This document shows positions 8,137 to 22,723 of a stretch of DNA of 35,017 nucleotides, piece after piece. Both the position numbers and the translations under genes were made by a program. The first letter of the stretch is position 1, and every line of letters starts with the position of its first letter. The stretch comes from Flammeovirgaceae bacterium (GTDB lineage Bacteria > Bacteroidota > Bacteroidia > Cytophagales > Cyclobacteriaceae). The notes beneath the pieces are model-generated. The model had not been told where the DNA came from, ran no database searches, and saw only the letters and a program-made list of their open reading frames with translations. Location of the stretch: the NCBI GenBank assembly GCA_021300095.1, contig JAJTHV010000123.1, positions 1-35,017 on the forward strand. The letters run 5' to 3'.

Positions 8137-8150
8137 TTGAAATTTTCTTT

Positions 8151-8182
8151 AAAAAGGGACTGTTTGGAACAGTCCCTTTTTT
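8151..8182 (+). terminator. Intrinsic terminator after the TonB-dependent receptor
   Basis: The stem AAAAAGGGACTGT / ACAGTCCCTTTTTT with a short TTGGA loop is followed by a T/A-rich tail. It starts 14 bases after the receptor stop codon. Confidence 0.9.
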
Positions 8183-8386
8183 ATTTATAATCGTTAACAA
8201 TTCATTCATCTGAATTTGAAAAGATTCTTCTGGAATAAATTTATGATAGTCAAAAGTTCAAAAACAAGTTATTGTATATCACCTTATTATAACAATCAAT
8301 CTAATCATTATAAGTAAGGCGAGGCTCGTAACATTACAATAACAATCTGATAATTCAGCCATAATTAGGCTGTGGTTTATTGCATC

Positions 8387-8394
8387 TAAATTTG
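8387..8394 (+). promoter_or_regulatory. -7 promoter element of the surface lipoprotein gene
   Basis: TAAATTTG matches TAnnTTTG exactly and ends 24 bases before the chosen ATG at 8419. No convincing -33 TTTG is present. Its position places the transcription start downstream of the earlier in-frame ATG at 8380, which supports 8419 as the real start. Confidence 0.5.
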
Positions 8395-8418
8395 GGGATA
8401 ATTTTAAAAAAATATTAC

Positions 8419-10764
8419 ATGAAAAAATTACTAAAACTTAGTGCGCTTTTCCTGTCGCTATTTATGGTAGTGGCAATACAAAGCTGTAAGGATGATCCAG
8501 CACCAGCACCCCCTACATTAACTGGTCCCACATCTGTAGCTTCAGTTCAAGTTGCTGCAAAGGCTGATGTTACATTTACTTTCACCGCTGCTGGTGGATA
8601 TCAAACCAGCACCGTAACTGCTGTGGGTGGTACCGCAACAGTTAAAACTCCTCCAACCGCTGGAGCCACAACTGGTTCAGTAGTAACTGAGTTTACTGCT
8701 GGTAATACAGCAGGAGCTGGTTCAGTAACACTTACTCTAACTGATAACAAAGGCAACAAAGTAACTCAAACTGCTGTGCTCAACGTTACAATAAGTGCTC
8801 CTCCAACTGTAACATTGTTAAACGCTTCTGGATCTGTTGCAGCTGGCACTACTATCGATGCAACTGTTACCATTACTGCTGCTAACGGAGCTAAGAACAT
8901 TACTTATACAACCACTGGCGGTTTAACTGGAGCTCCAGTTAGCCCAATAACTATTGCTGGTAGTCCAACCGCAGCAACTAATCAGGTAATCACGTTTACA
9001 GTTCCTGCTAATGCTGTTGTAGGTTCAACCCTTACCGCCATCATCACTGGTACTGACAATCAAAACTTAAACTCTTCTCCTGTTGTATTTACTGTTACTG
9101 TATCTGACGTTGCCAATGTTCTTACTGGTACACTCACAGCCAATAAAACGCTAACAAGCGGAACCCCTTGGACTGTAAAAGGCCAATACATTGTAAATTC
9201 AGGAGTAACTTTAACGGTTGATCCTGGAACTATCGTAAAGGGTGACAAAGCGACAAAAGGTCTTATCATCATCAAGCCAGGTGGAAAGTTAATCGCTGTA
9301 GGAACATCTACTCAGCCGATCGTATTTACTTCTTCACAGCCAATCAATGAGAGAGATCGTGGCGATTGGGGTGGTATTGTTTGGTTAGGAAATGCATTCG
9401 TTAATCAAGGCACTGCTCCTGCTGTAGAAGGAGTTTCACCTAGCCAAACTTACGGAACACCTAGCACTAGCGATGCCAACGCAGGAACTAACACTGAAGA
9501 CAACGGTAAATTGAAATACGCTCGTATTGAGTATGCAGGAATTGAGTTGTCACCTAACAACGAAACAAATGGTTTGACAATGGGCGCATTGGGCTCAGCC
9601 ACAGAAATTGACTATGTGCAAGTTTCTTATGGTGGCGATGATGCGTTTGAGTGGTTTGGAGGAACGGTAAATGCAAAACACTTAGTTGCCTTTGCAACGT
9701 GGGATGACGATTTTGATACCGACTTTGGTTGGAGAGGAAAAGTGCAATATGGTGTTGCTGTTAGAGCTCCTTTCATTGCTGATCAATCAGGTTCAACTAG
9801 CTTTGAAAGTGATAGCCAAGCAAATGCAAACCCTATCGGAACAATATGTACAGATGCTGCAAAATCAGGCTGTACACAAGGTGTTTTCTCAAACATGACT
9901 GTTTATGGTCCTCGTGAGTATAGCCGCGGTATTTCTGGTAGCTACACTCGCGCAATGCACATCCGCAGAAGAACTGCTGTTTCAATATTTAACTCGGTTG
10001 TAACAGGTTATTTGTCTGGTCTTCAAATGGACGACCTTGGTACTTCTACCAACTACCCTACAAATTATGATGCGACTGCAGCTTCTAGCACAGATTTAGG
10101 AAAATTAGCAAACAATGAATTGTACGTTTCATTGTTGCCAAATACTCCTTCTGATATTGGTTCTAATGCAACAGCATTAACTGCAATCAGCAATGCAACA
10201 GGTAACTCAATGTTTGGTGCTGGTGGTGGTTTAGTACCTTCTACTTTCCCTCAAACTGTATACCGTGCTGCTGGTGCTGCAAACAACGATTATGCTCCGG
10301 CATTTATTTCTACCTGGACATCTTCAGGAACCGGTCAGGCGCTCAGAAACAATTGGGCTAGTGCAGCATCTACAATCGCTGAAACCAATAACGACCCAGC
10401 TAACAAAGACAATGGAACTATCGCTTTCGCAAATGGCGTTGGTACAATTGTAAACGGTGTTACTGCAGGTGCTTGGACAGAAGGCACTTCTGTAGCTGTT
10501 GTTAATCCATACGCAGGTTCAGGATTAAGAACTACTCCTTTCTATGCAGGAAGTTCTAGCACAAGTTATCCTTCTAATCCTGACTTTACTCTAAACTCAG
10601 CCGATGCTACTGTTGCTGGTAAGCGTTTAGATCAAGGAGCTAGCTTCACAGATGCAAGATTAACTTCTGGCTTCACTGTTACTACATTTAGAGGTGCATT
10701 TGATGGCACAACCGATTGGACTGATGGTTGGTCAGAATTCGTGCCTTTGACTAAAGTTTATTAA
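8419..10764 (+). CDS. Large putative surface-exposed lipoprotein, partner of the receptor
   Basis: With the ATG at 8419 the protein has 781 residues. A lipoprotein signal ends AIQSC at C23, and the mature end C-K-D-D-P matches the Lys plus acidic export signal known to send Bacteroidota lipoproteins to the cell surface. Residues about 30-235 are Thr/Ala/Val-rich Ig-like modules. From about 240 on, a parallel-beta type domain includes VNSGVTLTVDPGTIVKG, ERDRGDWGGIVWLGNA, YGGDDAFEWFGGTVNAKHLV, and an Asp-rich WDDDFDTDFGW that could bind Ca. Homologues often lie next to TonB-dependent receptors and are sometimes mislabelled as transporters; that is from memory. It has its own promoter and terminator. 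The ligand is unknown. Confidence 0.75.
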   Translation: MKKLLKLSALFLSLFMVVAIQSCKDDPAPAPPTLTGPTSVASVQVAAKADVTFTFTAAGGYQTSTVTAVGGTATVKTPPTAGATTGSVVTEFTAGNTAGAGSVTLTLTDNKGNKVTQTAVLNVTISAPPTVTLLNASGSVAAGTTIDATVTITAANGAKNITYTTTGGLTGAPVSPITIAGSPTAATNQVITFTVPANAVVGSTLTAIITGTDNQNLNSSPVVFTVTVSDVANVLTGTLTANKTLTSGTPWTVKGQYIVNSGVTLTVDPGTIVKGDKATKGLIIIKPGGKLIAVGTSTQPIVFTSSQPINERDRGDWGGIVWLGNAFVNQGTAPAVEGVSPSQTYGTPSTSDANAGTNTEDNGKLKYARIEYAGIELSPNNETNGLTMGALGSATEIDYVQVSYGGDDAFEWFGGTVNAKHLVAFATWDDDFDTDFGWRGKVQYGVAVRAPFIADQSGSTSFESDSQANANPIGTICTDAAKSGCTQGVFSNMTVYGPREYSRGISGSYTRAMHIRRRTAVSIFNSVVTGYLSGLQMDDLGTSTNYPTNYDATAASSTDLGKLANNELYVSLLPNTPSDIGSNATALTAISNATGNSMFGAGGGLVPSTFPQTVYRAAGAANNDYAPAFISTWTSSGTGQALRNNWASAASTIAETNNDPANKDNGTIAFANGVGTIVNGVTAGAWTEGTSVAVVNPYAGSGLRTTPFYAGSSSTSYPSNPDFTLNSADATVAGKRLDQGASFTDARLTSGFTVTTFRGAFDGTTDWTDGWSEFVPLTKVY

Positions 10765-11648: not shown

Positions 11649-12710
11649 ATGAGCTTAACGAAAGGAAATGTGAAGAAGATTTTGTTCACCGTAGGATCGC
11701 TTAATCAAACCACCCAGATGCATGCCATCGCATCGCATCTACCTGAATACGACTGTTACTTCAGTCAATTTTATAGTGACAATCCGATTATTCAATACTT
11801 CGTTAGCAAAGGGATAGCTGACCACACCATCTTATCCGGTCAATTCAAAGAAAAGGCCGATACCTATCTGCGGCAGTATCACTTAAAAAATGATTACGCA
11901 CAGTCCGTTTACAAAAATCGTTATGACCTAGCTGTTGTCTGCAGCGATTTGCTCGTGCCTGTCTCTATTCGCCAAACAAAATCAATTTGGGTGCAAGAAG
12001 GCATGACCGACCCCATCACACCACTATCCCGAATTGTTAAGGCACTCGATCTTCCGCGTTATTGGGCAATGAACACTTCCCTGAATGGCACTTCTAACTT
12101 GTGCGACATTTATTGTGTGGCCAGCGAAGGCTACAAAGAGCATTTCCAAAAATTAGGTACAAAGGATTCGAAACTCGTTGTTACGGGCATGTCGAACTTT
12201 GATAATGTAGCGGCACTTGCCTATAACAATTTCCTGCATCGCAATTATGTGTTAGTTGCCACTTCTGATATTCGGGAGTGCATGGGATTCGAAAATCGGG
12301 TTGCTTTTATACGCAAAACCGTAGCCACTGCCAATGGTCGCACGTTGATTTTTAAACTCCATCCCAACGAAAAAAAGGAAAGAGCCATTCGTGAGATCAA
12401 AGAAAATACACCACCCGGCACACTGATTTATACCGATGGAAACATCAATCACATGATCTACCATTGCGATGAATTGATTACACAATATTCGACTGTTGTA
12501 TATGTAGGCTTGGCGTTGGGTAAAAAAGTGCACTCCTATTTTAACATGGACGAATTACGAAAAAAGACACCGATTCAAAACGAAGGAAAATCGGCAGCGC
12601 ACATCGCGGAGATTTGCAGACGGTACATCGAATATCCAAATAGTCTTTCACAATTTTTAAAAAACGAATTGCCTTCCATTGAGGCTAACTACCAAAAAAT
12701 AGCCTGTTAA
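11649..12710 (+). CDS. GT-B-fold glycosyltransferase/epimerase-like protein
   Basis: This 353-aa cytoplasmic protein has two Rossmann-like halves. The first starts KKILFTVGSLNQTTQMHAIA and includes YDLAVVCSDL. The second includes NYVLVATSD, LIFKLHPNEKKE (about 233-244) and YSTVVYVGLALGKKVHSYF (about 280). This resembles CDP-glycerol/capsule transferases and UDP-GlcNAc 2-epimerase relatives. As the first gene of the operon with the cytidylyltransferase and NeuB-like synthase, it may transfer the CMP-activated acid, or it may replace a NeuC-type epimerase. The sequence alone does not decide. The spacing to the next gene is 24 bases. Confidence 0.55.
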   Translation: MSLTKGNVKKILFTVGSLNQTTQMHAIASHLPEYDCYFSQFYSDNPIIQYFVSKGIADHTILSGQFKEKADTYLRQYHLKNDYAQSVYKNRYDLAVVCSDLLVPVSIRQTKSIWVQEGMTDPITPLSRIVKALDLPRYWAMNTSLNGTSNLCDIYCVASEGYKEHFQKLGTKDSKLVVTGMSNFDNVAALAYNNFLHRNYVLVATSDIRECMGFENRVAFIRKTVATANGRTLIFKLHPNEKKERAIREIKENTPPGTLIYTDGNINHMIYHCDELITQYSTVVYVGLALGKKVHSYFNMDELRKKTPIQNEGKSAAHIAEICRRYIEYPNSLSQFLKNELPSIEANYQKIAC

Positions 12711-12734
12711 AATCGTTCTAAAAAAGACAAGCCT

Positions 12735-13544
12735 TTGAAAATAGTAACCGTTGTTCAGGCCCGCATGAGTTCCACTCGCCTTCCCGGCAAGGTAATGTTA
12801 CCGTTATGTGGCGAACCGTTGCTAGTAAAGATGCTGGAGCGTTTAGCCCACGCAAAAAATGTGGGTAAAATTGTAGTAGCCACCACCAAAGATGCGGAAG
12901 ACAATGCGATTGCTTCACTTTGTGAGGCAAACCACGTAGCGGTTTATCGCGGAAGCAAATACGATTTATTGGATCGGCATTATCAAGTTGGCCACATGTA
13001 TAAAGCCGATGCGGTAGTAAAAATTCCCTCCGATTGTCCCATGATCGATCCTGCTGTTATTGACAAAGTCATCGGTTACTATCTCAATCATCAACACAAA
13101 TATGATTACGTCAGCAATTTGCATCCTGCCAGCTATCCGGATGGGAATGATGTTGAAATAATGTCGATGAAGGCATTGGAAAAAGCGTGGGAATCGGCCA
13201 CAGCCAAATTGGAACTGGAACACACCACTCCTTTCATTTGGGAGAACCGAAATCTTTTTCGAATCGGAAATGTAAAATGGGAAAGTGGTTTAGACTATTC
13301 GATGTCGCATCGTTGGACGATTGACTATCCGGAAGATTATCAGTTCATCGAAGCGATTTACAATCAATTGTATCCCATCAAAAATATATTTTCTCTTTCC
13401 GATATTTTAGAATTGGTAAAGGCACAACCAGAAATACAATCCATCAATCAAAAATGGGCAGGCGTAAACTGGTACCGCCATCACTTAGATGAATTGAAAA
13501 CAGTCGGAAAGAATCAAACCAAACTAATTGAAGAAGCACAATGA
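12735..13544 (+). CDS. SpsF-like cytidylyltransferase
   Basis: This 269-aa protein belongs to the CTP_transf_3/SpsF family, relatives of NeuA and KdsB that join CMP to acidic sugars. The nucleotide-binding start is MKIVTVVQARMSSTRLPGK, followed by VVKIPSDCPMIDP (about 95-107) and the RWTIDYPEDYQFI box. The start codon is TTG at 12735: the family motif needs these first residues, and the next ATG (12764) would delete part of the CTP-binding loop. It overlaps the transketolase N gene by 4 bases (ATGA). By context it should activate the product of the NeuB-like enzyme. SpsF activity on a defined sugar is poorly known. Confidence 0.8.
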   Translation: MKIVTVVQARMSSTRLPGKVMLPLCGEPLLVKMLERLAHAKNVGKIVVATTKDAEDNAIASLCEANHVAVYRGSKYDLLDRHYQVGHMYKADAVVKIPSDCPMIDPAVIDKVIGYYLNHQHKYDYVSNLHPASYPDGNDVEIMSMKALEKAWESATAKLELEHTTPFIWENRNLFRIGNVKWESGLDYSMSHRWTIDYPEDYQFIEAIYNQLYPIKNIFSLSDILELVKAQPEIQSINQKWAGVNWYRHHLDELKTVGKNQTKLIEEAQ

Positions 13545-14398
13545 CTGAAGAACAAATAACTGATTTGCAAAAACTCGCACTTGCTGTTCGCGAAAACATC
13601 GTGCGTTTGTCGACCGATGGTGGTTGCTTTACAGGCGCATCACTATCGTGTGCCGATTTACTCGTCTATCTCTATTCACATTATTTAAATGTCAACCCGT
13701 CTAACTTAACCGATCCTAATCGCGATTATTTGTTTTTATCCAAAGGTCATGACGTGCCTGCACTGTACAGTCTATTTGCCGAATTGGGTTTTATTGATTC
13801 ATCTCGATTAGCCAATCATTTGGAAACAAATGATCACATCTACTGGCATCCAAATACACACATTCCGGGAGTTGAATTTCATTCGGGTTCGCTCGGTCAC
13901 TTACCGGCTGTAGCAATGGGTGTAGCTATGGACTGTCGTATTAAAAAGCAATCCAACAAAATTGTAGTAATTACCGGAGATGGTGAACTGAACGAAGGTT
14001 CTGTATGGGAAAGCGCGCTCGTAGCAGCAGCTTACAAACTCGATAATCTAATTTGGATTGTAGATCGAAATTATTTTCAGGCAAACGTGGCTACCGAAGA
14101 ATTGATTCCGCTCGATCCGATTCATAAAAAATTTGAAGCATTTGGATGGAATGCCATCGATGTGGATGGTCATGATTTTAGTGCCATGCACAATGTGTTT
14201 TCTTCCCTCACCACACCGAATGGAAAACCCACTGTGGTGGTTGCGCACACCGTTCGTGGCAAAGGCTTGCCCAGCATTGAAAAAAGAGCCGATCGTTGGT
14301 TCTGCAATTTTACACACGAAGAAATAAGCGCATTGCTGCACGAACTGCACGAAAACAAATTAGCTGAATTGAATTCTGAAACATTAGTAGTACGATAA
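13541..14398 (+). CDS. Transketolase-like protein, N-terminal (TPP-binding) subunit
   Basis: The 285-aa product covers the PP domain of transketolase. It has SKGHDVPALY (68-77), HSGSLGHLPAVAMGVA (114-129) and the TPP/Mg motif GDGELNEG (146-153) with VDRN further on. The partner subunit is the next gene, which overlaps by one base. Split transketolases occur both in core metabolism and in sugar gene clusters. Here the pair lies between the cytidylyltransferase and an aminotransferase, so it probably moves a two-carbon keto unit when building a special sugar precursor. The substrate is inferred from context only. Confidence 0.88.
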   Translation: MTEEQITDLQKLALAVRENIVRLSTDGGCFTGASLSCADLLVYLYSHYLNVNPSNLTDPNRDYLFLSKGHDVPALYSLFAELGFIDSSRLANHLETNDHIYWHPNTHIPGVEFHSGSLGHLPAVAMGVAMDCRIKKQSNKIVVITGDGELNEGSVWESALVAAAYKLDNLIWIVDRNYFQANVATEELIPLDPIHKKFEAFGWNAIDVDGHDFSAMHNVFSSLTTPNGKPTVVVAHTVRGKGLPSIEKRADRWFCNFTHEEISALLHELHENKLAELNSETLVVR

Positions 14399-15327
14399 TG
14401 AATTACGAAGAACTAATTTCTGAACTAGCATTAGCCGATGAGCGCTACATCATCATGACGGCCGAAAACCGTGCCCTCATTCGCAACATTCCAAAAAATC
14501 CTGCACTAGCGGATCGCTTCATCGATACAGGTATTACCGAACAAACGATGATCGGCATGGCAGCCGGATTAGCTCTGCGCGGTCGCGTGCCTATTGTTCA
14601 TGCGTTGGCGGCATTTCTCACGATGCGTGCGTATGAATTTATTCGCACGGATGTGGGCATCGCTCATCTTCCAGTAAAGCTCACCGGATTTATTCCAGGG
14701 TTTCTTTCCGATGGAAACGGACCCACGCATCAAGCCATTGAAGATGTATCGATCATGCGTGGCATTCCCGGTATGCAAGTTTTTGCTCCTGCCGATGAGG
14801 AAGATATGATTCTGATGTTACCTGAAATTTGGGACTCGTCATCACCTGCTTACACACGCGCCAATCTAATAAAGCCTCTGGTCGCACACAACAAAAATTT
14901 CAGAATTGGCAAAGCCGAAGTGATTGCAGAAGGATCTACAATCACATTCCTGACATACGGAATGTTATTCAATAATGTATTACAAGCCAAACAAGTTTTA
15001 GAAGCTCAAGGTCTTTCTATTGGGCTGGTGAACATGCGCAGCTTAAAACCAGTGGACGAAGAAGTAATCATTCGCACAGTCAAAGAAAGCGAATTGGTCG
15101 TGGTGGTCGAAGATCACTTCACGACAGGAGGGCTGTATTCCATCGTAGCTGAAGTGCTGTTGAAAAATCAGTTGACGGGTAATGTGCAGCCCCTTTCACT
15201 CAACGAACAATGGTTTCGTCCGGCCAGACTAACGCAGGTGCTGGAATACGAAGGGTTCACACCCGAGAAAATCGCTGCTCGCGCACTAGGAATTTTAGAA
15301 TCCACCGCAACAAAAATCCAATTATGA
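14398..15327 (+). CDS. Transketolase-like protein, C-terminal subunit
   Basis: This 309-aa protein contains the pyrimidine-binding domain with TGITEQTMIGMAAGLA (44-59), where E48 matches the Glu that activates thiamine diphosphate. It also has DGNGPTHQAIEDVSIMRGIP (about 105-124) and a C-terminal transketolase domain beginning near 180 (GSTITFLTYGMLFNN). It overlaps its partner by one base at the start and the aminotransferase by 4 bases at the end (ATGA), so translation is probably coupled. It should form an alpha2beta2 enzyme with the preceding gene product. Confidence 0.88.
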   Translation: MNYEELISELALADERYIIMTAENRALIRNIPKNPALADRFIDTGITEQTMIGMAAGLALRGRVPIVHALAAFLTMRAYEFIRTDVGIAHLPVKLTGFIPGFLSDGNGPTHQAIEDVSIMRGIPGMQVFAPADEEDMILMLPEIWDSSSPAYTRANLIKPLVAHNKNFRIGKAEVIAEGSTITFLTYGMLFNNVLQAKQVLEAQGLSIGLVNMRSLKPVDEEVIIRTVKESELVVVVEDHFTTGGLYSIVAEVLLKNQLTGNVQPLSLNEQWFRPARLTQVLEYEGFTPEKIAARALGILESTATKIQL

Positions 15328-16661
15328 TCAATCGCCACTATCCGGATATCACCATCAGCAATGCGTGGTATCAACGTGCCCGTCAAGTTATGTTTCCGGT
15401 TACGCAAACGATGGCCAAAGGCCCATCACAATACGTGAATGGCGTGGCACCGAAGTATGTAACGCGTGGTAAAAATGCCCATGTGTGGGATGTGGATGGA
15501 AATGAATACATCGACTACACGATGGCCGTTGGTCCTGTGTCGCTAGGCTATGCATATGATCGTGTAGACGAAGCCATCAAAAATCAATTGAAAGACGGCA
15601 TTACATTTTCGCTCATGCATCCGCTCGAAGTTGAATTGAGTGAGCTTATCCATCGAATAATTCCAAATGCAGAAGGTGTACGCATTGCCAAAACAGGTGC
15701 CGAAGTTTGCAGCGCAGCGGTGCGTGTTTCTCGTGCATATACTGGAAGAAAAAAGGTGCTGTGCTGTGGGTATCACGGCTGGCATGATTGGTACATTGGC
15801 ACCACGAGTCGGGCTGAAGGAATTCCGGAAGAAATCAAAGAATTAACAGGCACCTTCGAATATAACAATATCGAATCGCTTCGCGCACAGCTAACAGAAG
15901 AAGTTGCATGTGTCATTCTGGAGCCATTCATCTTCGAACATCCCAAAGAAAATTTTCTTCAGCAAATACAAGCGCTTTGTCAAGCCAATGGATCGTTGTT
16001 GATTTTTGATGAAATGTGGACAGGCTTTCGGGTAGCGCTTGGCGGAGCACAAGAATATTTTGGCATCACACCTGACTTAGCTGTTTACTCAAAAGCTTTT
16101 GCCAATGGCATGCCCATTGCTTTGCTCACGGGCCGAAAAGATGTTCTACAGCTATTCGAAAAAGATGTATTCTTTTATTCTACTTTCGGAGGAGAGGCGC
16201 TCTCGCTCGCTGCGGCCGTAGCCACCATTCAGGAAATGGAGGAAAAAAATGTGGCCGCTGCTTTAGCTGCCAAAGGCAAAAGACTAAAAGACGGGTACAA
16301 TCAGATTGCTGAAAAAAATAATCTGAGTGCCGTAACTACGTGTCAGGGATTTGATTGCCGAACCATTATTACGTTCAATGCATCGGCAGGAGATCCGCTG
16401 ATCCTTAAATCTTTCGTACAACAAGAAATGATCAAGCGTGGCATTCTGTGGGGCGGATTTCACAATGTTTGTTTCACCCATTCCGAAGAAGATCTCAATC
16501 ATACACTGCAAGCGTACGAAGAAGTATTGCCATTACTTGTGGAAGCTATTCAAAAAGGAAACATTGAATCGATGCTTCTCGGCAAACCAGTAGAAGCGGT
16601 ATTCCGAAAAGTAGGTAACGTACAAAAAGCTTTCAGCGAAAAAGTGCTTCAGGTAAAATGA
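15324..16661 (+). CDS. Class III (PLP) aminotransferase, HemL-like
   Basis: The start is the ATG at 15324 inside the ATGA overlap; an upstream TTG-type extension to 15210 reads through the neighbouring gene out of frame and is not real. The 445-aa protein has AKTGAEVCSAAVRVSRAYTG (122-141), YHGWHD (150-155), the PLP acid in IFDEMWTGFR (D229) and the Schiff-base lysine in YSKAFANG (K257). The fold is that of glutamate-1-semialdehyde aminomutase, but the sugar-cluster context and the different N-terminus argue against heme synthesis. It probably adds an amino group to a keto or aldehyde sugar. It overlaps the SDR gene by 4 bases. Confidence 0.87.
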   Translation: MINRHYPDITISNAWYQRARQVMFPVTQTMAKGPSQYVNGVAPKYVTRGKNAHVWDVDGNEYIDYTMAVGPVSLGYAYDRVDEAIKNQLKDGITFSLMHPLEVELSELIHRIIPNAEGVRIAKTGAEVCSAAVRVSRAYTGRKKVLCCGYHGWHDWYIGTTSRAEGIPEEIKELTGTFEYNNIESLRAQLTEEVACVILEPFIFEHPKENFLQQIQALCQANGSLLIFDEMWTGFRVALGGAQEYFGITPDLAVYSKAFANGMPIALLTGRKDVLQLFEKDVFFYSTFGGEALSLAAAVATIQEMEEKNVAAALAAKGKRLKDGYNQIAEKNNLSAVTTCQGFDCRTIITFNASAGDPLILKSFVQQEMIKRGILWGGFHNVCFTHSEEDLNHTLQAYEEVLPLLVEAIQKGNIESMLLGKPVEAVFRKVGNVQKAFSEKVLQVK

Positions 16662-17464
16662 CAGAACTATTCTCACTAAAAGATAAAGTCGCCATCGTAA
16701 CGGGTGCGTGTGGGTTGCTTGGCAAAAAACATTGCGAGGCATTAGCGGAAGCAGGTGCATTTGTGGTGGCAGCCGATGTAGATGCAAAGACATGTATCAC
16801 TTTTGCAAATGATTTAGGAAATAGCCATCTCGGCATCGGATTGGATGTTACCAACGAGGCTTCCATTCGCGCAGCAAAAGAGGAAGTCATAAAAAAATAT
16901 GGTCGGATAGATGTATTGGTCAATAATGCCGCCATCAACGACATGTTTGAAAACCCGATTGCTGCACTCGAACAATCACAATTTGAAAACTATCCACTTC
17001 ATCTTTGGCAGCGATCGCTGGATGTGAATGTAACCGGAGTGTTTCTTTGCAGTCAGGTTTTTGGAACGGTCATGGCCGAAGCAGGTAGCGGCAGCATCAT
17101 CAACATTGCTTCTACTTATGCGATCACTGCTCCCGATCAAAAATTGTATCTCAACGAAGCGGGCGAACAAACTTTTTATAAATCGGCTGCATACCCGAGC
17201 ACAAAAGGTGCTGTGTTGGGCTTCACTAAATTTCTTGCATCCTACTGGGGAAACAAAGGCGTGCGCGTCAATGCGCTCTCACCAGGTGGCGTAGAAAATG
17301 GTCAAGATGATTTTTTCATCAAAAATTATAGCGAACGTACACCACTTGGACGAATGGCAGACCGCACCGATTACCAAGGTGCGATTGTATTCCTGGCGAG
17401 CGATGCTTCAAGATATATGACAGGCGCGAATCTGGTAGTAGATGGGGGATGGACCATAATATAG
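16658..17464 (+). CDS. Short-chain dehydrogenase/reductase
   Basis: This 268-aa classical SDR has the cofactor loop TGACGLLG (15-22), D40 after the second strand (favouring NAD), NNAA (89-92), the catalytic S152, and Y179-x3-K183 (YPSTK). The C-terminal RYMTGANLVVDGGW is standard. Translation is coupled to the aminotransferase. By context it oxidises or reduces a sugar hydroxyl/keto group in the same pathway, possibly making the keto group used by the aminotransferase. The substrate is inferred. Confidence 0.9.
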   Translation: MTELFSLKDKVAIVTGACGLLGKKHCEALAEAGAFVVAADVDAKTCITFANDLGNSHLGIGLDVTNEASIRAAKEEVIKKYGRIDVLVNNAAINDMFENPIAALEQSQFENYPLHLWQRSLDVNVTGVFLCSQVFGTVMAEAGSGSIINIASTYAITAPDQKLYLNEAGEQTFYKSAAYPSTKGAVLGFTKFLASYWGNKGVRVNALSPGGVENGQDDFFIKNYSERTPLGRMADRTDYQGAIVFLASDASRYMTGANLVVDGGWTII

Positions 17465-17507
17465 ATGTGAGGTATGAGAATTGAGATTAGAGATTAAATA
17501 CAATAAA
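17465..17507 (+). repeat. Heptamer-periodic stretch before the KdsC-like gene
   Basis: From 17466 the units read TGTGAGG, TATGAGA, ATTGAGA, TTAGAGA and TTAAATA, each 7 bases. They fill nearly the whole gap between the SDR stop and the next ATG (17508). A similar 7-base period occurs before arsS. Confidence 0.6.
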
Positions 17508-18017
17508 ATGTCTATTGACGAAATAAAAAGACGAGCGAACAAAATCAAGTTGATGATAACCGATGTGGATGGTGTGCTTACCGACAATGGGGTGTACTAT
17601 TCCGGTAATGGAGAAGAATTGAAACGTTTTTCGTTTCGCGATGGCATGGGTGTTGAGCGCTTACGCAAAATCGCTTCCATTGAAACGGGTATCATCACGC
17701 GTGAAGATTCTCTTCCGGTTTTTAAGCGTGCCGAAAAACTAAAGATCAAAGAATTGCACATGGGTGTGCAAGATAAGGCGCTACGCCTTCAAGAAATCAT
17801 GGAGCGCATCCAAATTTCAAAAGATGAAATCGCTTACATCGGAGATGATATCAACGATGAGGAAATCATGAAGCAAGTGGGATTGTGCGCTTGCCCAGCC
17901 GATGCCATGAGCTTCGCCAGACGCGTTGCTCACTATGTATGCACCACCAACGGAGGGCACGGTGCTTTCCGTGAGTTTGCCGAACTAATCATTAACAGCA
18001 AAATAAATCTAAACTAA
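17508..18017 (+). CDS. KdsC-like HAD phosphatase
   Basis: Starting at the ATG at 17508 (MSIDEIKRRA) the protein is 169 aa, the usual KdsC length. It has the HAD nucleophile box DVDGVLTD (19-26), the Thr/Ser motif in GIITRED (61-67), a conserved Lys near 90, and IGDDIND (111-117). This subfamily forms tetramers that remove phosphate from Kdo-8-P, KDN-9-P or Neu5Ac-9-P. Lying directly before the NeuB-like synthase, it probably dephosphorylates that enzyme's 8- or 9-phosphate product. An upstream TTG at 17481 in frame lies in the repeat and is less likely. Confidence 0.85.
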   Translation: MSIDEIKRRANKIKLMITDVDGVLTDNGVYYSGNGEELKRFSFRDGMGVERLRKIASIETGIITREDSLPVFKRAEKLKIKELHMGVQDKALRLQEIMERIQISKDEIAYIGDDINDEEIMKQVGLCACPADAMSFARRVAHYVCTTNGGHGAFREFAELIINSKINLN

Positions 18018-18029
18018 AATTCTACGATT

Positions 18030-18920
18030 ATGAATCATGTCGTGTTGAACAATGGAAGAGAAATAGGCGCAGGTTATCCCGTCTATATCATTGCCGAAAT
18101 TGGTATCAATCACAATGGCTCTGTTGACATTGCCAAAAAGCTGATTGACTGGGCAAGCATTGCAGGCTGCGATGCGGTGAAGTTTCAAAAAAGAACACCG
18201 GAATTGTGTGTTCCCAAAGATCAATGGGACAAGCAGCGCCAAACTCCCTGGGGCACCATGAGCTACATCGACTACAAGCGCAAAACCGAATTTGGAAAAG
18301 CGGAGTTTGAAGAAATCGATTTGTATTGTGCGCAAAAGAAAATTGATTGGTTTGCCTCTGCTTGGGATGAACCTTCGGTAGATTTTCTCGAGCAATTCAA
18401 TCCGGTCATGTACAAGTTAGCATCAGCTAGTTTAACTGATTTCGATTTGATTAAAAAAGTGTTGACCACCGGTCGTCCGCTGATGTTATCTACCGGTATG
18501 TCTACCGAGATGGAAATTGAAGATGCCATCGACTTAACCGGCACGCGCAACGTGATGGTGGCACACTCTACTTCGGCATATCCATGCGATCCGGCTCAAT
18601 TGAATTTGAATATGATCCGCACACTGATCAACAAATTTGATTTACCGATCGGTTACTCCGGTCATGAAACAGGCCTAGCTCCTACTTTAGCAGCCGTTTC
18701 ATTAGGTGCCACTTTCGTGGAACGCCATGTGACGCTTGATCGCGCGATGTGGGGTTCTGATCACGCTGCTTCGGTAGAGCCGCAAGGAATCGTGAAATTG
18801 GTTCGCGATATCCGCGATATCGAGAAAAGTTTAGGCGATGGAGTAAAGCGTGTGTATGAAAGCGAACTCGAACCGATGAAGCGGTTGAGAAGAGTCATTA
18901 ATCAAACCGTAAATGCATAA
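18030..18920 (+). CDS. NeuB-like sugar-acid synthase without SAF domain
   Basis: This 296-aa TIM-barrel enzyme has the NeuB signatures IAEIGINHNG (about 21-30), VKFQKRTPE, KLASASLTDFDLI, LSTGMSTEMEIEDAI, HSTSAYP, PIGYSGHETG and FVERHVTLDR. NeuB enzymes condense phosphoenolpyruvate with an N-acyl hexosamine or a hexose (6-phosphate) to make nonulosonic acids. Typical NeuB proteins are about 340-350 aa and end with an antifreeze-like SAF domain. This one stops after the barrel with no sign of truncation. Paired with the KdsC-like phosphatase, it suggests the phosphorylated route used for KDN. The substrate is not readable from sequence. Confidence 0.87.
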   Translation: MNHVVLNNGREIGAGYPVYIIAEIGINHNGSVDIAKKLIDWASIAGCDAVKFQKRTPELCVPKDQWDKQRQTPWGTMSYIDYKRKTEFGKAEFEEIDLYCAQKKIDWFASAWDEPSVDFLEQFNPVMYKLASASLTDFDLIKKVLTTGRPLMLSTGMSTEMEIEDAIDLTGTRNVMVAHSTSAYPCDPAQLNLNMIRTLINKFDLPIGYSGHETGLAPTLAAVSLGATFVERHVTLDRAMWGSDHAASVEPQGIVKLVRDIRDIEKSLGDGVKRVYESELEPMKRLRRVINQTVNA

Positions 18921-18982: not shown

Positions 18983-19870
18983 ATGAAAGTAGAGACCATT
19001 ACATTTCTGATTTTAATTTCCTCGGCAGCCTCCATCATTTGGCTGGAACGGAAATATCCATATACCAAAGGTCTACCCTTTTTCCGTGAAGGATTTTGGG
19101 TAGACTTGGTTTGGTATACATTGATTCAAAGCTTCTTTTTGAAGATTCTCATCTTCGATTATATCATTCTACCCATCGATCAGCGCTTTTCGCTATCATC
19201 ATTGAAACTGATCTCCAATTGGCCTGTAGCAGTACAAGTTTTGTTTTTTCTGATCACCCATGATTTTTATATCTATTGGTTTCATCGGTGGCAACATAAT
19301 TCAAAAATCCTGTGGCGGACACATGAGGCACATCATTCCGTCAAGGAAGTAGATTGGATTGCAGGTTCACGTTCACATGTTGTTGAAATCATCATCAATC
19401 AAACCATCGAATTCGCTCCGATCATTTTGCTTGGCGCAGATCCCATCGTGGTTCCGATCAAAGCGTGTATCGATGCGGTGTGGGGCATGTACATTCATTC
19501 GAATATCAACGTGCGCTCCGGCAAGTGGCAATACTTTATCAATGGCCCTGAAATGCACCAATGGCACCATGCTGAAACTGTAGAAACGTACTTCGCCAAT
19601 TACGCTACTAAGTTTGCTTTTTGGGATTGGATGTTTGGAACAGCCTATCTACCCAACACAAAACCAAATGTCTTCGGTTTGCCGTATAAATATCCGAAAG
19701 ACTATTTTTTACAACATGCTTTTTCGGTAAAACGATTTGATGAAGATGAACTGAAGAAGAAAAAGGGATGGAGCCAATACCTTGACCTTCGCTTTTCAAT
19801 TATGAAGTGGTTTAATGGATTGTTTTCTACTTCGGAAAAACGAAGTTCAAAAAACGAAAGTGTGGCCTGA
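18983..19870 (+). CDS. Fatty acid hydroxylase / sterol desaturase family protein
   Basis: The protein is 295 aa with about four hydrophobic membrane segments. Its di-iron His motifs are HDFYIYWFHRWQH (93-105), HEAHH (114-118) and HQWHH (192-196), with one more His upstream at about H172. Such membrane oxygenases hydroxylate or desaturate acyl chains, sphingoid bases or carotenoids. It starts 62 bases after the NeuB-like gene and overlaps the SMR gene by one base (TGATG). Lipid modification is the general role; the exact lipid is unknown. Confidence 0.88.
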   Translation: MKVETITFLILISSAASIIWLERKYPYTKGLPFFREGFWVDLVWYTLIQSFFLKILIFDYIILPIDQRFSLSSLKLISNWPVAVQVLFFLITHDFYIYWFHRWQHNSKILWRTHEAHHSVKEVDWIAGSRSHVVEIIINQTIEFAPIILLGADPIVVPIKACIDAVWGMYIHSNINVRSGKWQYFINGPEMHQWHHAETVETYFANYATKFAFWDWMFGTAYLPNTKPNVFGLPYKYPKDYFLQHAFSVKRFDEDELKKKKGWSQYLDLRFSIMKWFNGLFSTSEKRSSKNESVA

Positions 19871-20235
19871 TGCAGTGGTTTTATTTAATTGTCGCTGCGC
19901 TATTGGAAGTGGGTTGGATCTTCAGCTTAAAGAAATTCAGTTTCGCGGAACTAAAGAAATTTTCATTTCAACTCGTCATTGAACAGCCTCAGACAGCGAC
20001 CGGATTACTGCTTCCATTATTTGGCTACATTCTGTTCGGGCTTGGTAACATCTATTTTTTCTCCCTCGCGATGAAGCAAATCCCTGCCTCCACTGCGTTT
20101 GCCATTTGGATGGGGCTCACGCTAGCTGGTGTTAAACTTGTGGAAGTTCTAATTCTTAAGCATGAAACTAAACCACTTGATTTAGTTTATCTGGCGATGT
20201 TAGTTATCGCCATTATTGGTTTAAAGAAAAGCTAA
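19870..20235 (+). CDS. SMR-type small membrane protein
   Basis: This 121-aa protein has four predicted transmembrane helices. E13 in AALLEVGW sits at the place of the proton/drug-coupling Glu of EmrE, and IPASTAFAIWMGLTLAG matches the conserved third-helix region of small multidrug resistance proteins. It overlaps the hydroxylase stop by one base and ends the operon, one base from the convergent GT39 gene. It could export a cationic compound, or it could flip or carry a lipid-linked product. The transport substrate is unknown. Confidence 0.8.
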   Translation: MQWFYLIVAALLEVGWIFSLKKFSFAELKKFSFQLVIEQPQTATGLLLPLFGYILFGLGNIYFFSLAMKQIPASTAFAIWMGLTLAGVKLVEVLILKHETKPLDLVYLAMLVIAIIGLKKS

Positions 20236-20236
20236 T

Positions 20237-21892
20237 TCAGTTCAATTGGAGTAGGTGACTTTTAGACAACGTGCCCTTGCGCGTGGCTGCATTCATAAAA
20301 TCGCCTTGCGGCTGACTGATATGATAATTGGAAAATGTTTGTAGAATCTGATAGTGTATTCCGGTATCTGATAGTTTCTTGAGGAGTCCTTCGCTGCAAA
20401 AAAATAAAAGCTTGTTGTTCATCTTCAGCAATTGTTCTACCGAATAATACGTTACAATTTCACGATAGTAAAAATCGAATGAATAGGAATTATCGCCCTC
20501 TATCATGGCAACCGTTCTTGTTGGGTATTTCTGATTTACGTAAAAGGCAGCCTCGCTTCCGGATTGATAGTGCACCAAGTCGCGCGTAAAGAAAAAAGCC
20601 AGGTAAACATACAGCATACAGCTTGCAGCTACAGTTCTGCCAAATGCTGTTTGAAGAGTCATGCTCTTATCCGATAATTTTACGACAATGAGTAGGCTAA
20701 TCAAAATCCAACCAATTGCTAAAAACAAAAGTTCTGGTTGAAACCAAATCGTTAATGCAATGGCTGCGGTAAATGCTAATACTGATTGAAAATAGAAAAG
20801 GCCCCGCCAGAATACATTTTTTGTGTAAGTCACCATCTCACACAAATAAAAAGCACTGAGTATGCTCATAAACGGAAAAATGATATTCATGTAGTGAGGT
20901 AGCTGAAATCCTGAAAAGGAAAAAAGGAGAAATGTAAATACCGTGTTGCCGATGGTAATCAGTTCCGGTATCTGTTTGAACTTGGTTTTAACGGCTGCAA
21001 AGATGGCTCCGAAAAATAAAATGGAAGAAGGAAAAAAAGCCCAAAGGGTGGTATGCAAAAAGAAAAACTTGTCGCCTTCGCCTTGAATGGGTCCTGTGTT
21101 AAAAAATCGCCCAAACTGACTATCCCAAAAGAAAAAACGGATTCCGGAAACGCCTGTCTTTCCAAAAACAATTTTTTCAGGATGAAGATCAAATTGCTGG
21201 TAGAGACTGAACAATTCAGGAGTGATGAATACCAAAATTAGTACGATCGCTAGTAACCATCGCCAATGAAATAATGTGAGCCACTCTTTTTTCCAACTCC
21301 AATGAATGAGCAATCCTATACCAATGGTGCTGATTACAAAAATTCCTTTGGTCATGATAGCGCAGGCAGCTAGCAGTGTTCCTAGGATTAAATCCAGCCC
21401 GAATTTTTGTTGCGAAGCCCTGTATAAATGAAAAACACTTCCAATAATCAATCCCATCAGATACGGTTCGGCCCGCACATCGTTATTGGATAATACGGCA
21501 TGCATAGCTGTGAGATAAATCAGAACTGAAATTTGGGCAACCGTCCTCGTGTAAAACAAATTAGCAAAGCGAAAAGTATACCATCCGCCCAATGCCCAAA
21601 ACAACAAGGCAGGAAGTTTATAGGCGAATGTGGTGATGCCAAAGATGTGATAACTGAGTGCTATCATCCAAAACGGAAAGTGGGGTTTATCCAGCCAATC
21701 TCGTCCTTGTAAAATCAGGTTCCCATAATCTCCGGTAAGCACCATTTGTTTCGCAAGCGTAGCATACACAGCTCCATCGGGCTCTATTATCGTAAAGAAT
21801 AAACCCGTCAGGTTAACTAAAATACCGGCTCCCAAAAAATACCTCCATCGGGCATCAAGCCACTGTTCCCACGAATAATTCAACAATTTCAT
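20237..21892 (-). CDS. GT39/ArnT-like membrane glycosyltransferase
   Basis: This 551-aa protein has about 11-12 hydrophobic segments and the PMT/ArnT features. An acidic loop follows the first helix (IIEPDGAVYATLAKQM, E37 and D39), with GRDWLDKPHFPFW (63-75), NNDVRAEPYLMG (about 135-146) and TKG in the next loop. These enzymes move a sugar from a polyprenyl-phosphate donor to lipid A, protein or another acceptor on the outer face of the inner membrane. A soluble tail of about 130 residues is periplasmic. It is convergent with the sugar operon and divergent from the PAP2 gene. The acceptor is unknown. Confidence 0.85.
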   Translation of the reverse strand: MKLLNYSWEQWLDARWRYFLGAGILVNLTGLFFTIIEPDGAVYATLAKQMVLTGDYGNLILQGRDWLDKPHFPFWMIALSYHIFGITTFAYKLPALLFWALGGWYTFRFANLFYTRTVAQISVLIYLTAMHAVLSNNDVRAEPYLMGLIIGSVFHLYRASQQKFGLDLILGTLLAACAIMTKGIFVISTIGIGLLIHWSWKKEWLTLFHWRWLLAIVLILVFITPELFSLYQQFDLHPEKIVFGKTGVSGIRFFFWDSQFGRFFNTGPIQGEGDKFFFLHTTLWAFFPSSILFFGAIFAAVKTKFKQIPELITIGNTVFTFLLFSFSGFQLPHYMNIIFPFMSILSAFYLCEMVTYTKNVFWRGLFYFQSVLAFTAAIALTIWFQPELLFLAIGWILISLLIVVKLSDKSMTLQTAFGRTVAASCMLYVYLAFFFTRDLVHYQSGSEAAFYVNQKYPTRTVAMIEGDNSYSFDFYYREIVTYYSVEQLLKMNNKLLFFCSEGLLKKLSDTGIHYQILQTFSNYHISQPQGDFMNAATRKGTLSKSHLLQLN

Positions 21893-22051
21893 TTCACAAA
21901 ATTAATCAGTAAAAAAAGTAAACCTGCGCCCTTCCTTTACAAGACTTGTTTATCAAATTGTAAAGAGAAGTTCGAATAATGGATTAATTCATAACAATGG
22001 TTTTATCTGTCAATGAAATAGAAGTAATAATTCATTGGTAGAATTGCCATT

Positions 22052-22723
22052 ATGAAACAGATTTCATCTGAAGTAACTTTTACTAGCCGGCTGTATATTT
22101 TTTCTGTCGTTTTACTTTGTATTCTTTCCGTTTTCATACCAAAAGGCGCAGATGTTCTGTTTATTAATGGAAATCATTCCGAATTTTTAGATCAGTTTTT
22201 CTCATCGATTACTCACTTGGGAGCCGGGCATTTACTGATCCTGATTTTGATTGCTTCGCTTTTCATTCGCTTTCAATGGTCATTGCTTACCATTTCTGTT
22301 TGGATAAGCCATGGAATCGTGTGCGCTCTTTTCAAAAGAGTTCTATTCCGTCATCTGGATCGCCCCAAACAGTTGATTGATAACCAACTACTCTATTTTG
22401 TTCCAAATGTAGATGTACATACACACTTCTCCTTTCCTTCCGGGCACACAGCCACAATATTTTGCATTTGTTTTCTGCTGTCATTGTGGATAAAAAACAG
22501 AATGGCAACGGTTTTGCTTTTGTTCGTTGCCCTGCTGGTTGGATATTCTCGAATTTATTTACTTCAGCATTTCCTGATGGACGTGGCTGCCGGGGCAACC
22601 ATTGGCGTCTTGTGCACTTACCTATTCTGGCACTACTTTCAACAGGCAAATTTGCCAAGGTGGGCATCCAATTATTTGAAAATTGATCTATCTCAGTCTC
22701 TGCCAAACAAAAAAACAGCCTAA
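22052..22723 (+). CDS. PAP2-family membrane phosphatase
   Basis: This 223-aa protein has about six membrane helices. Its phosphatase motifs are K95/R96 with RP (104-105), PSGH (129-132) and SRIYLLQHFLMD (166-177), with the catalytic His residues H132 and H173. Likely substrates are phosphatidate-type lipids, undecaprenyl diphosphate or lipid A phosphates, with the active site on the periplasmic side. It is divergent from the GT39 gene by 159 bases, and both could belong to envelope glycolipid handling. A secreted phosphodiesterase gene follows in the same direction. Confidence 0.88.
   Translation: MKQISSEVTFTSRLYIFSVVLLCILSVFIPKGADVLFINGNHSEFLDQFFSSITHLGAGHLLILILIASLFIRFQWSLLTISVWISHGIVCALFKRVLFRHLDRPKQLIDNQLLYFVPNVDVHTHFSFPSGHTATIFCICFLLSLWIKNRMATVLLLFVALLVGYSRIYLLQHFLMDVAAGATIGVLCTYLFWHYFQQANLPRWASNYLKIDLSQSLPNKKTA

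Follow-up and report, generated by a model that had tools for sequence, protein, structure and literature searches.

Most known nonulosonic acids are carried on polysaccharide or protein. One of the closest described routes to the locus treated here is the pathway to KDN (2-keto-3-deoxynononic acid) of Bacteroides thetaiotaomicron (synthase BT1714 and a phosphatase) and Prymnesium parvum, which combines a NeuB-family synthase acting on a phosphosugar with a phosphatase and CMP transfer. In Shewanella, the 8-amino form (Kdo8N) of 3-deoxy-D-manno-octulosonic acid (Kdo) is made by oxidation and then amination of a finished ulosonic acid, with transamination by KdnA reportedly following oxidation by KdnB. 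In the article excerpts cited here and below by PMC number, the substrate of the KDN pathway is mannose-6-phosphate (PMC6200933), and Kdo8N synthesis starts by oxidation of Kdo at C8, KdnB being the 8-oxidase (PMC5125639). The window analyzed here, the whole stretch of 35,017 nucleotides from contig JAJTHV010000123.1 of a Flammeovirgaceae bacterium (GenBank assembly GCA_021300095.1, 473 contigs), contains a ten-gene cassette that resembles both routes and, in its hydroxylase and in genes beside its relatives, ornithine lipid synthesis (OlsF or OlsBA, and OlsE). Compared with the KDN pathway, the cassette adds a transketolase, an aminotransferase, a short-chain dehydrogenase/reductase (SDR), a GT-B-fold glycosyltransferase-like protein, a hydroxylase, and a small transporter; it has an SpsF-type cytidylyltransferase where the KDN pathway has NeuA, and its phosphatase scored below the KDN equivalog cutoff. 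Compared with Kdo8N synthesis, an SDR and a class III aminotransferase stand in place of an iron-dependent alcohol dehydrogenase and KdnA, and the ulosonic acid is different.

The cassette is best grouped with phosphosugar-type nonulosonic acid pathways, with a lipid as its likely target. Tentatively, it is read as a self-contained, probably mobile set of ten genes that would make an aminated nonulosonic acid from a phosphosugar, activate it with CMP, and place it on a membrane lipid. The gene set, its conservation, the fusions, the identity of mapped active sites, and the gene neighborhoods were computed. From these a route may be deduced, including all of its reactions, its substrates, and its lipid link. 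The synthase would condense phosphoenolpyruvate (PEP) with a central aldose phosphate, most likely mannose-6-phosphate, to a KDN-9-phosphate-type acid, from which the KdsC-type phosphatase would remove the phosphate. The SDR would then oxidize one hydroxyl, and the HemL-like aminotransferase would convert the carbonyl to an amine, giving an amino-KDN that SpsF would convert to the CMP-sugar. The GT-B-fold protein would transfer the sugar to a lipid at the cytoplasmic face, plausibly ornithine lipid in several genomes, after which the OlsE-like hydroxylase would hydroxylate the lipid and the SMR-family protein or its replacements would move it across the membrane. The transketolase would serve an accessory step.

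It is possible, while still short of probable, that this is a widespread sialo-lipid cassette, in which a dedicated transketolase helps to convert a central sugar phosphate into an aminated sialic acid-like sugar, which is then attached to an aminolipid, ornithine lipid or a different one, and flipped outward to the cell surface, as a bacterial counterpart of gangliosides. If so, it would represent a way to nonulosonic acids that lacks the usual UDP-sugar enzymes and has a transketolase found almost only in the cassette, and it would connect sialic acid-like sugars with the membrane lipids of bacteria. The aminotransferase of the cassette was present in 44 of 296 genomes and matched in named Hymenobacter and Mucilaginibacter strains, which makes the product and the order of steps directly testable. 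Among the matches listed from the openly licensed literature, judged by title and the start of the abstract, no description of such a cassette or route and no ulosonic acid on an ornithine lipid was found. In the same literature, transketolase combined with nonulosonic acid terms gave only matches unrelated by title, and ornithine lipid combined with neuB terms gave, among the matches listed, only an author's name; these negatives are weak evidence of novelty.

Probable synthase substrate and proposed amination of the acid

The cassette synthase belongs to the NeuB family and, as had been described from the sequence, has no match to the SAF domain, which sets it apart from canonical NeuB/NnaB. 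The C-terminal SAF domain of canonical NeuB supplies Arg314 (PMC6795526). Scores below the equivalog cutoffs for NeuB/NnaB (TIGR03569, 255 versus 399.65) and PseI (TIGR03586, 192 versus 340) ruled out both known equivalogs. Sixteen contact positions, eleven of them NmeNANAS residues named in the cited excerpt (PMC6795526) and five further ones, were mapped on 97 NeuB sequences (74 cassette-like, 14 of which were partial or NeuB only; 10 from transketolase-less loci; 9 from two-gene units; and 4 Chlorobi-like), and 15 of the 16 were invariant. The two-gene units consist of a cytidylyltransferase-phosphatase fusion followed by NeuB, with no amino-sugar genes. Over the whole protein, cassette and two-gene NeuBs differed at only three group-conserved positions (80% and 70% limits), and the two-gene NeuBs formed one clade (98/92) nested within the cassette NeuBs in a tree rooted with two distant outgroup rows.

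Because the two-gene unit has no sugar-building genes, its NeuB should use a central metabolite; because the mapped active site of the cassette NeuB is the same, the latter probably also takes a common sugar phosphate, for example mannose-6-phosphate, with amination occurring later. With moderate confidence, and by analogy, the reaction may be taken as a KDN-9-phosphate-type synthesis. One two-gene row (L079) is from Streptomyces and presumably corresponds to the SCO4873-SCO4882 region. Kdn is a constituent of the main wall polymer of S. coelicolor (PMC7831098), this polymer maps to SCO4873-SCO4882 (PMC13011467), and characterized Kdn-9-phosphate synthases use mannose-6-phosphate, which for one of them was the only substrate accepted out of seven sugars (PMC6200933).

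In Mucilaginibacter and Taibaiella loci, the phosphatase forms the N-terminal part of one protein with NeuB, according to the full sequences of L013, L032, and L052 and, in others, according to length; a single protein of this kind supports a phosphorylated NeuB product that would be dephosphorylated at once. Replacement of the Kdo route by the cassette was rejected, as KdsA was separately present in all 16 genomes tried, including that of the window. Phosphatase and NeuB also occurred without other cassette genes beside them, as one gene in Mucilaginibacter aquaedulcis (L034/L112), which has a cassette-type C-terminal transketolase chain elsewhere in its genome, and as a gene pair in genomes of family f36 (L130 to L133) and, with the same genes around it, in Chlorobium ferrooxidans (L075), where the pair was flanked by proteins that by eye were fumarase-like and HtpG-like. 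Near one KDN phosphatase over its cutoff (L164:2870-4615), NeuB formed the C-terminal part of a 581-amino-acid protein with a weakly SpsF-like N-terminal part (24%).

Ten loci around relatives of the aminotransferase bear on the amination step. SpsF was beside or fused to the aminotransferase in five (L147 and L152 to L155), four of which had a NeuB-family synthase in the stretch; neither was seen in the remaining five. The pseudaminic or legionaminic acid clusters L152 and L153 share with the cassette SpsF, the aminotransferase family, and an oxidoreductase. L152 contained PseB, PseC, and PseI over their cutoffs, a complete pseudaminic acid cluster, with a KidO-like aldo-keto reductase and an SpsF-aminotransferase protein, and differs from the cassette in starting from UDP-N-acetylglucosamine (UDP-GlcNAc) with PseB and PseC and in a synthase over the PseI cutoff. 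L153 contained SpsF, the aminotransferase, a longer NeuB, and an SDR 39% identical to that of the window. The O-antigen of Flexibacter maritimus includes an 8-amino nonulosonic acid (PMC3210612). By analogy with the SpsF-aminotransferase loci, this 8-amino nonulosonic acid, and the Kdo8N route, the SDR is inferred to oxidize, and the aminotransferase then to aminate, the finished acid; the aminated carbon might, as a guess, lie in the side chain at C8 or C9. A caveat is that a Legionella serogroup 6 locus also has a HemL-like aminotransferase, together with PseG and a cytidylyltransferase (PMC3694923). Single SpsF-aminotransferase proteins of about 680 amino acids recurred (L152:7481-9577, L154 at 6838, L155 at 7370, and L071 at 15436).

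Distribution of the cassette and place of the transketolase

A NeuB search of genome contigs produced 80 loci, which, given how they were chosen, are the nearest relatives by NeuB; 57 had flanks of at least 8 kb upstream and 2.5 kb downstream of NeuB, and the other 23 were excluded for short flanks. Co-occurrence of the transketolase pair (TktN and TktC), aminotransferase, SDR, and NeuB, proposed as a check on the locus, was found in 49 of the 57 full-flank loci, with the hydroxylase in 46 and the SMR gene in 40 of these 49; all ten genes exceeded the set identity limits in 32 of the 57. Duplicate contigs were L003 and L170, L064 and L123, and L072 and L180. A set of 296 genomes from the phylum gives a fairer test than the NeuB-relative loci but is unevenly sampled and crowded with family f36. 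In this sample, the cassette-type aminotransferase (at least 497 bits; next matches from 291 down) was present in 44 genomes, all with a short NeuB, and TktC (at least 272 bits) was present in 36, of which 35 had the aminotransferase. A short NeuB occurred in 111 genomes, 67 of them without the aminotransferase. The gene set co-occurred far above chance (Fisher test, P = 2.6e-22 for aminotransferase with NeuB and P = 6.6e-36 for TktC with aminotransferase, with relatedness not corrected for), and the transketolase and aminotransferase are conserved with NeuB, the opposite of one of the grounds for refutation named in the preliminary description. The lone TktC without the aminotransferase (G159:C118:24023-24892) was a decayed copy with seven stop codons.

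Within the genus of the window, TktC (at least 279 bits) was found in 9 of 57 other genomes and within the order in 3 of 38; this patchiness indicates that the cassette is probably mobile. The nearest relatives by NeuB were metagenome bins labeled Flammeovirgaceae and Bacteroidetes. Outside Bacteroidota, the cassette was found in Ignavibacteria, in Myxococcota bins, and in an Anaerolineae (Chloroflexota) bin, the last without the hydroxylase and SMR genes. The methanotroph Methylomagnum ishizawai carries it on a plasmid (L171), one of 4 plasmid records examined out of 36 with aminotransferase matches; the others, from two haloarchaea and one Shinella, had the aminotransferase only, with a different SDR beside it in Shinella. 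Genome G102 retained the genes in two distant groups (glycosyltransferase-SpsF-TktN-TktC-aminotransferase and SDR-phosphatase-NeuB-hydroxylase), and in L128 and L129 the transketolase and aminotransferase lay apart from the remaining cassette genes.

Nine of the 44 aminotransferase genomes had no cassette-type TktC (L117 to L125). Their loci had the order glycosyltransferase-SpsF-aminotransferase-SDR-phosphatase-NeuB-hydroxylase, with the transketolase pair cleanly missing and nothing in its place; in L120 an additional alpha-galactosidase gene lay between NeuB and the hydroxylase. In one such genome (G317, on the same contig as L064 and with the genome handle G096), searching the complete genome yielded no transketolase-like proteins other than some at 25 to 39% identity. 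The transketolase is dispensable to the cassette. Positions conserved at 90% in both versions were compared, using ten transketolase-less rows, one of which is a duplicate contig (nine genomes). None differed in the aminotransferase (0/164), SDR (0/107), NeuB (0/121), SpsF (0/82), glycosyltransferase (0/73), or phosphatase (0/49), and among the seven proteins compared only the hydroxylase had conserved changes (3/76). Because the other enzymes are almost unchanged in its absence, the transketolase probably does not alter what they handle.

Transketolase residues were compared using E. coli TktA numbering. Those for thiamine pyrophosphate (TPP) and Mg (H66, H100, D155, N185, E411, and H473) were retained in 18 of 18 sequences, while H26, H261, H461, and D469, which are taken to be substrate-pocket residues, were changed in all 18, to F, W, F or L, and N, respectively. 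The presumed phosphate-binding residues are R358, S385, and R520. MAFFT left R358 and S385 unaligned; the arginines were placed by spacing and motif, and S385 had no match. The last residue of TktN was Arg in 58 of 59 sequences, at the expected place of R358. A TAEN motif was present in 57 TktC rows, and in 52 of them its Glu lay 23 residues after this last residue of TktN, the distance that separates R358 and D381 in E. coli. A YxR motif stood in the position of R520 (LSR in E. coli) in 59 of 62 TktC rows, the other three being cut-off rows. Phosphate binding has thus probably persisted through changes elsewhere in the pocket, and a loss of the phosphate-binding residues, also considered, was dropped on the same grounds of spacing and motif. 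The chain is split exactly at the probable phosphate-binding arginine (window 14386-14403).

These comparisons bear on the order of steps first proposed, in which the transketolase would add two carbons to a sugar phosphate or remove two from it, the SDR and aminotransferase would yield an amino-aldose phosphate, and NeuB would condense this with PEP to an amino-ulosonic acid of nonstandard length; aminoDAHP-like logic provides a parallel. The near restriction of TktC to the cassette, the fusion of SpsF and TktN into one protein in L021 and L022, and the retained TPP and Mg residues are consistent with that order, and the two probable arginines suggest that a sugar phosphate may well be the transketolase substrate. 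Nevertheless, extension ahead of PEP condensation is hard to reconcile with nine genomes that have the aminotransferase, SDR, and NeuB and nothing replacing the transketolase, with only distant transketolase-like proteins in G317, with unchanged conserved positions in the three enzymes, with a substrate pocket altered in every sequence, and with a NeuB site matching that of the two-gene units. The order is therefore unlikely, and probably, not certainly, wrong.

Probable transfer of the sugar and the proposed lipid link

The first gene product had a confident AlphaFold2 model (pLDDT 93) with a GT-B fold by Foldseek. Top Foldseek matches were UDP-GlcNAc 2-epimerases (E = 1.4e-10), and a CMP-bound capsule polymerase, 8a0c, ranked eighth (E = 3.4e-9, TMq 0.45). 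Bacterial sialyltransferases, which are GT-B enzymes using CMP-sugars, have D/E-D/E-G, HP, and S-T motifs. Residues E117-G118, H238-P239, and S281, which would fit these motifs, were invariant in a 44-sequence alignment that used 43 of 50 available relatives, L005 having been dropped for stop codons. An Epimerase_2 match was below threshold (18.5 versus 30.6). Because the block has no other transferase candidate, the protein is read as a probable transferase for the CMP-activated sugar, although it may instead have an epimerase-like activity. None of the ten block proteins, the set searched, matched PseB, LegB, or NeuC over a cutoff, in agreement with the absences reported before, and the CMP-activated ulosonic acid pathway proposed there is supported.

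The hydroxylase and the small transporter had been left out of the earlier gene set, as had neighboring lipid genes. The hydroxylase falls in the OlsE superfamily but differs from OlsE itself (ornithine lipid hydroxylase equivalog NF052566, 110 bits, cutoff 475), and its histidine motifs were invariant in 36 of 36 sequences (35 of 60 relatives used, L072 dropped for stop codons). SMR, LPG_synthase_TM, and LplT proteins have lipid-flipping roles, and these three unrelated transporter families substituted for one another at cassette edges. An LPG_synthase_TM gene lay directly before the glycosyltransferase gene in L026, L035, L053, L080, L126, L134, and L179 (by Pfam in five and by BLAST in L080 and L179), where no SMR gene was found, and the Methylomagnum cassette, also without SMR, had LplT at its edge (552 bits, cutoff 297). 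In a survey of 62 rows, including two duplicate pairs, the transketolase rows comprised 40 with SMR, 5 with LPG_synthase_TM, and 8 with neither; the nine transketolase-less rows had neither.

Ornithine lipid synthesis genes adjoined eight cassette loci. In L117, L175, L176, and L177, the hydroxylase or SMR gene was directly followed by a same-strand OlsF gene (718 to 725 bits, cutoff 620), and the contig of L072 and L180 carried an OlsF copy truncated by the contig (451 bits). OlsB and OlsA pairs, all under cutoff, lay beside L178 and L179 (divergent) and the Methylomagnum cassette (same strand). OlsF (709.5 bits) also neighbored a lone second NeuB in L181. Of the 44 cassette genomes, 12 encode a member of the OlsB/OlsF family PF13444, and in 7 of them the gene lies no more than about 5 kb from the cassette. 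Together, the ornithine lipid neighbors and the replacement of transporters suggest that the pathway probably yields an amino-nonulosonic acid borne on a lipid. A histidine kinase (L064 and L123), the alpha-galactosidase, and a T9SS-tail protein were checked as lipid genes and found irrelevant.

The same neighbors bear on the alternative of a conventional nonulosonic acid of surface polysaccharide or lipopolysaccharide, to which nearby lipid genes would be incidental. Polysaccharide and protein are the usual carriers of such acids. SpsF is required for legionaminic acid transfer in Bacillus subtilis (PMC7439481). Against this alternative, no protein cluster besides the ten cassette genes was common to more than 8 of 81 clustered sources, so that no polysaccharide machinery travels with the cassette; KdsA is encoded separately; and the exchange of transporters and the proximity of OlsF, OlsBA, and PF13444 also count against it. 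A polysaccharide or lipopolysaccharide destination is therefore considered rather unlikely. Quite improbable is a division of labor in which the SDR, aminotransferase, and transketolase make a separate amine head group, acylated by OlsB or OlsF where present, and plain KDN is attached to the resulting lipid. It would account for the NeuB active site shared with the two-gene units and for OlsB/OlsF-type N-acyltransferases beside the eight loci; however, the complete OlsF copies exceed the ornithine lipid equivalog cutoff, so that their substrate is probably ordinary ornithine, and the SpsF-aminotransferase proteins in nonulosonic acid clusters indicate the acid as the target of amination.

Several observations weigh against an aminated, KDN-type acid on a lipid. 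One mapped NeuB position, a loop residue (T76 in the window, N74 in Nme), varied between groups, and the contacts Phe288 and Arg314 named in the excerpt (PMC6795526) fall beyond the NeuB alignment. No characterized enzyme was found in this NeuB clade, the best solved structure being 6ncs (148 bits). NeuBs beside KDN phosphatases over their cutoff were 30 to 38% identical to the window NeuB (6 of 7 loci), and the window phosphatase fell under the KDN-9-phosphate phosphatase equivalog (NF058599, 161 versus 180), which makes KDN-9-phosphate an analogy; since KDN phosphatases over the cutoff adjoin other NeuBs, the "kdn" label of the two-gene units is not proof either. The transketolase is nearly exclusive to the cassette yet unexplained by the six proposed steps, and its phosphate-binding arginines, being probably retained, favor a sugar-phosphate role, which the order of steps first proposed would require. 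The hydroxylase and SMR proteins miss every specific cutoff. PF13444 was not commoner in cassette genomes (12/44 versus 105/252 others; Fisher test, P = 0.09) and was not found in the genome of the window at E = 1e-8, so that ornithine lipid is not a universal acceptor. As a general acceptor it was rejected for want of genome-wide co-occurrence; only in certain genomes may it serve as the acceptor.

Operon layout and neighboring genes

The eight genes named in the preliminary description were present at 11649-18920, all on the plus strand in a single tight operon, and family matches agreed with the identities given (Table 1). The gaps between them were, in order, +24, -4, -1, -4, -4, +43, and +12 nucleotides. 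The end once placed at 18920 did not hold, since the hydroxylase and SMR genes follow to 20235, with gaps of +62 and -1 (a 1-nucleotide overlap). The aminotransferase start at 15210 was replaced by the ATG at 15324, which overlaps TktC by 4 nucleotides, and the protein differs from HemL (glutamate-1-semialdehyde aminomutase), scoring 249.8 against a cutoff of 527.3 for the equivalog TIGR00713. The SpsF-type protein is the only CMP-transfer enzyme of the block.

Table 1. Genes of the cassette in the window, with the matches on which each assignment rests
Predicted product	Position	Strand	Basis
GT-B-fold protein, probable transferase for CMP-activated sugar	11649..12710	+	Fold model, invariant motifs, sub-threshold family matches only
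SpsF-type cytidylyltransferase, TTG start	12735..13544	+	CTP_transf_3, E = 6.6e-30
Split transketolase, N-terminal (TPP) chain, TktN	13541..14398	+	Transketolase_N, E = 2.8e-29
Split transketolase, C-terminal chain, TktC	14398..15327	+	Transket_pyr and Transketolase_C
Class III (HemL-like) aminotransferase	15324..16661	+	Aminotran_3, E = 4.9e-48
SDR oxidoreductase	16658..17464	+	adh_short_C2; TGxxxGxG and YxxxK spotted by eye
KdsC-type HAD phosphatase	17508..18017	+	TIGR01670, 147 bits (cutoff 107); ATG at 17508, ORF opens at TTG 17481
SAF-less NeuB-family synthase, 296 amino acids	18030..18920	+	PF03102, 252.9 bits (cutoff 22.1)
FA_hydroxylase-superfamily membrane di-iron hydroxylase	18983..19870	+	Sole NCBIfam match OlsE, below cutoff
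SMR-family small membrane transporter	19870..20235	+	PF00893

Adjoining the cassette at window positions 20237-22723 were an ArnT-like membrane glycosyltransferase gene on the minus strand (59.7 bits, cutoff 567) and a PAP2 phosphatase gene. A 556-amino-acid minus-strand ORF occupied the place of the ArnT-like gene in L002, and none was there in L003. Upstream, at window positions 5296-10764, were genes for a TonB-dependent-receptor-like protein and a 794-amino-acid protein with a lipoprotein-like start by eye, both of which look ordinary.

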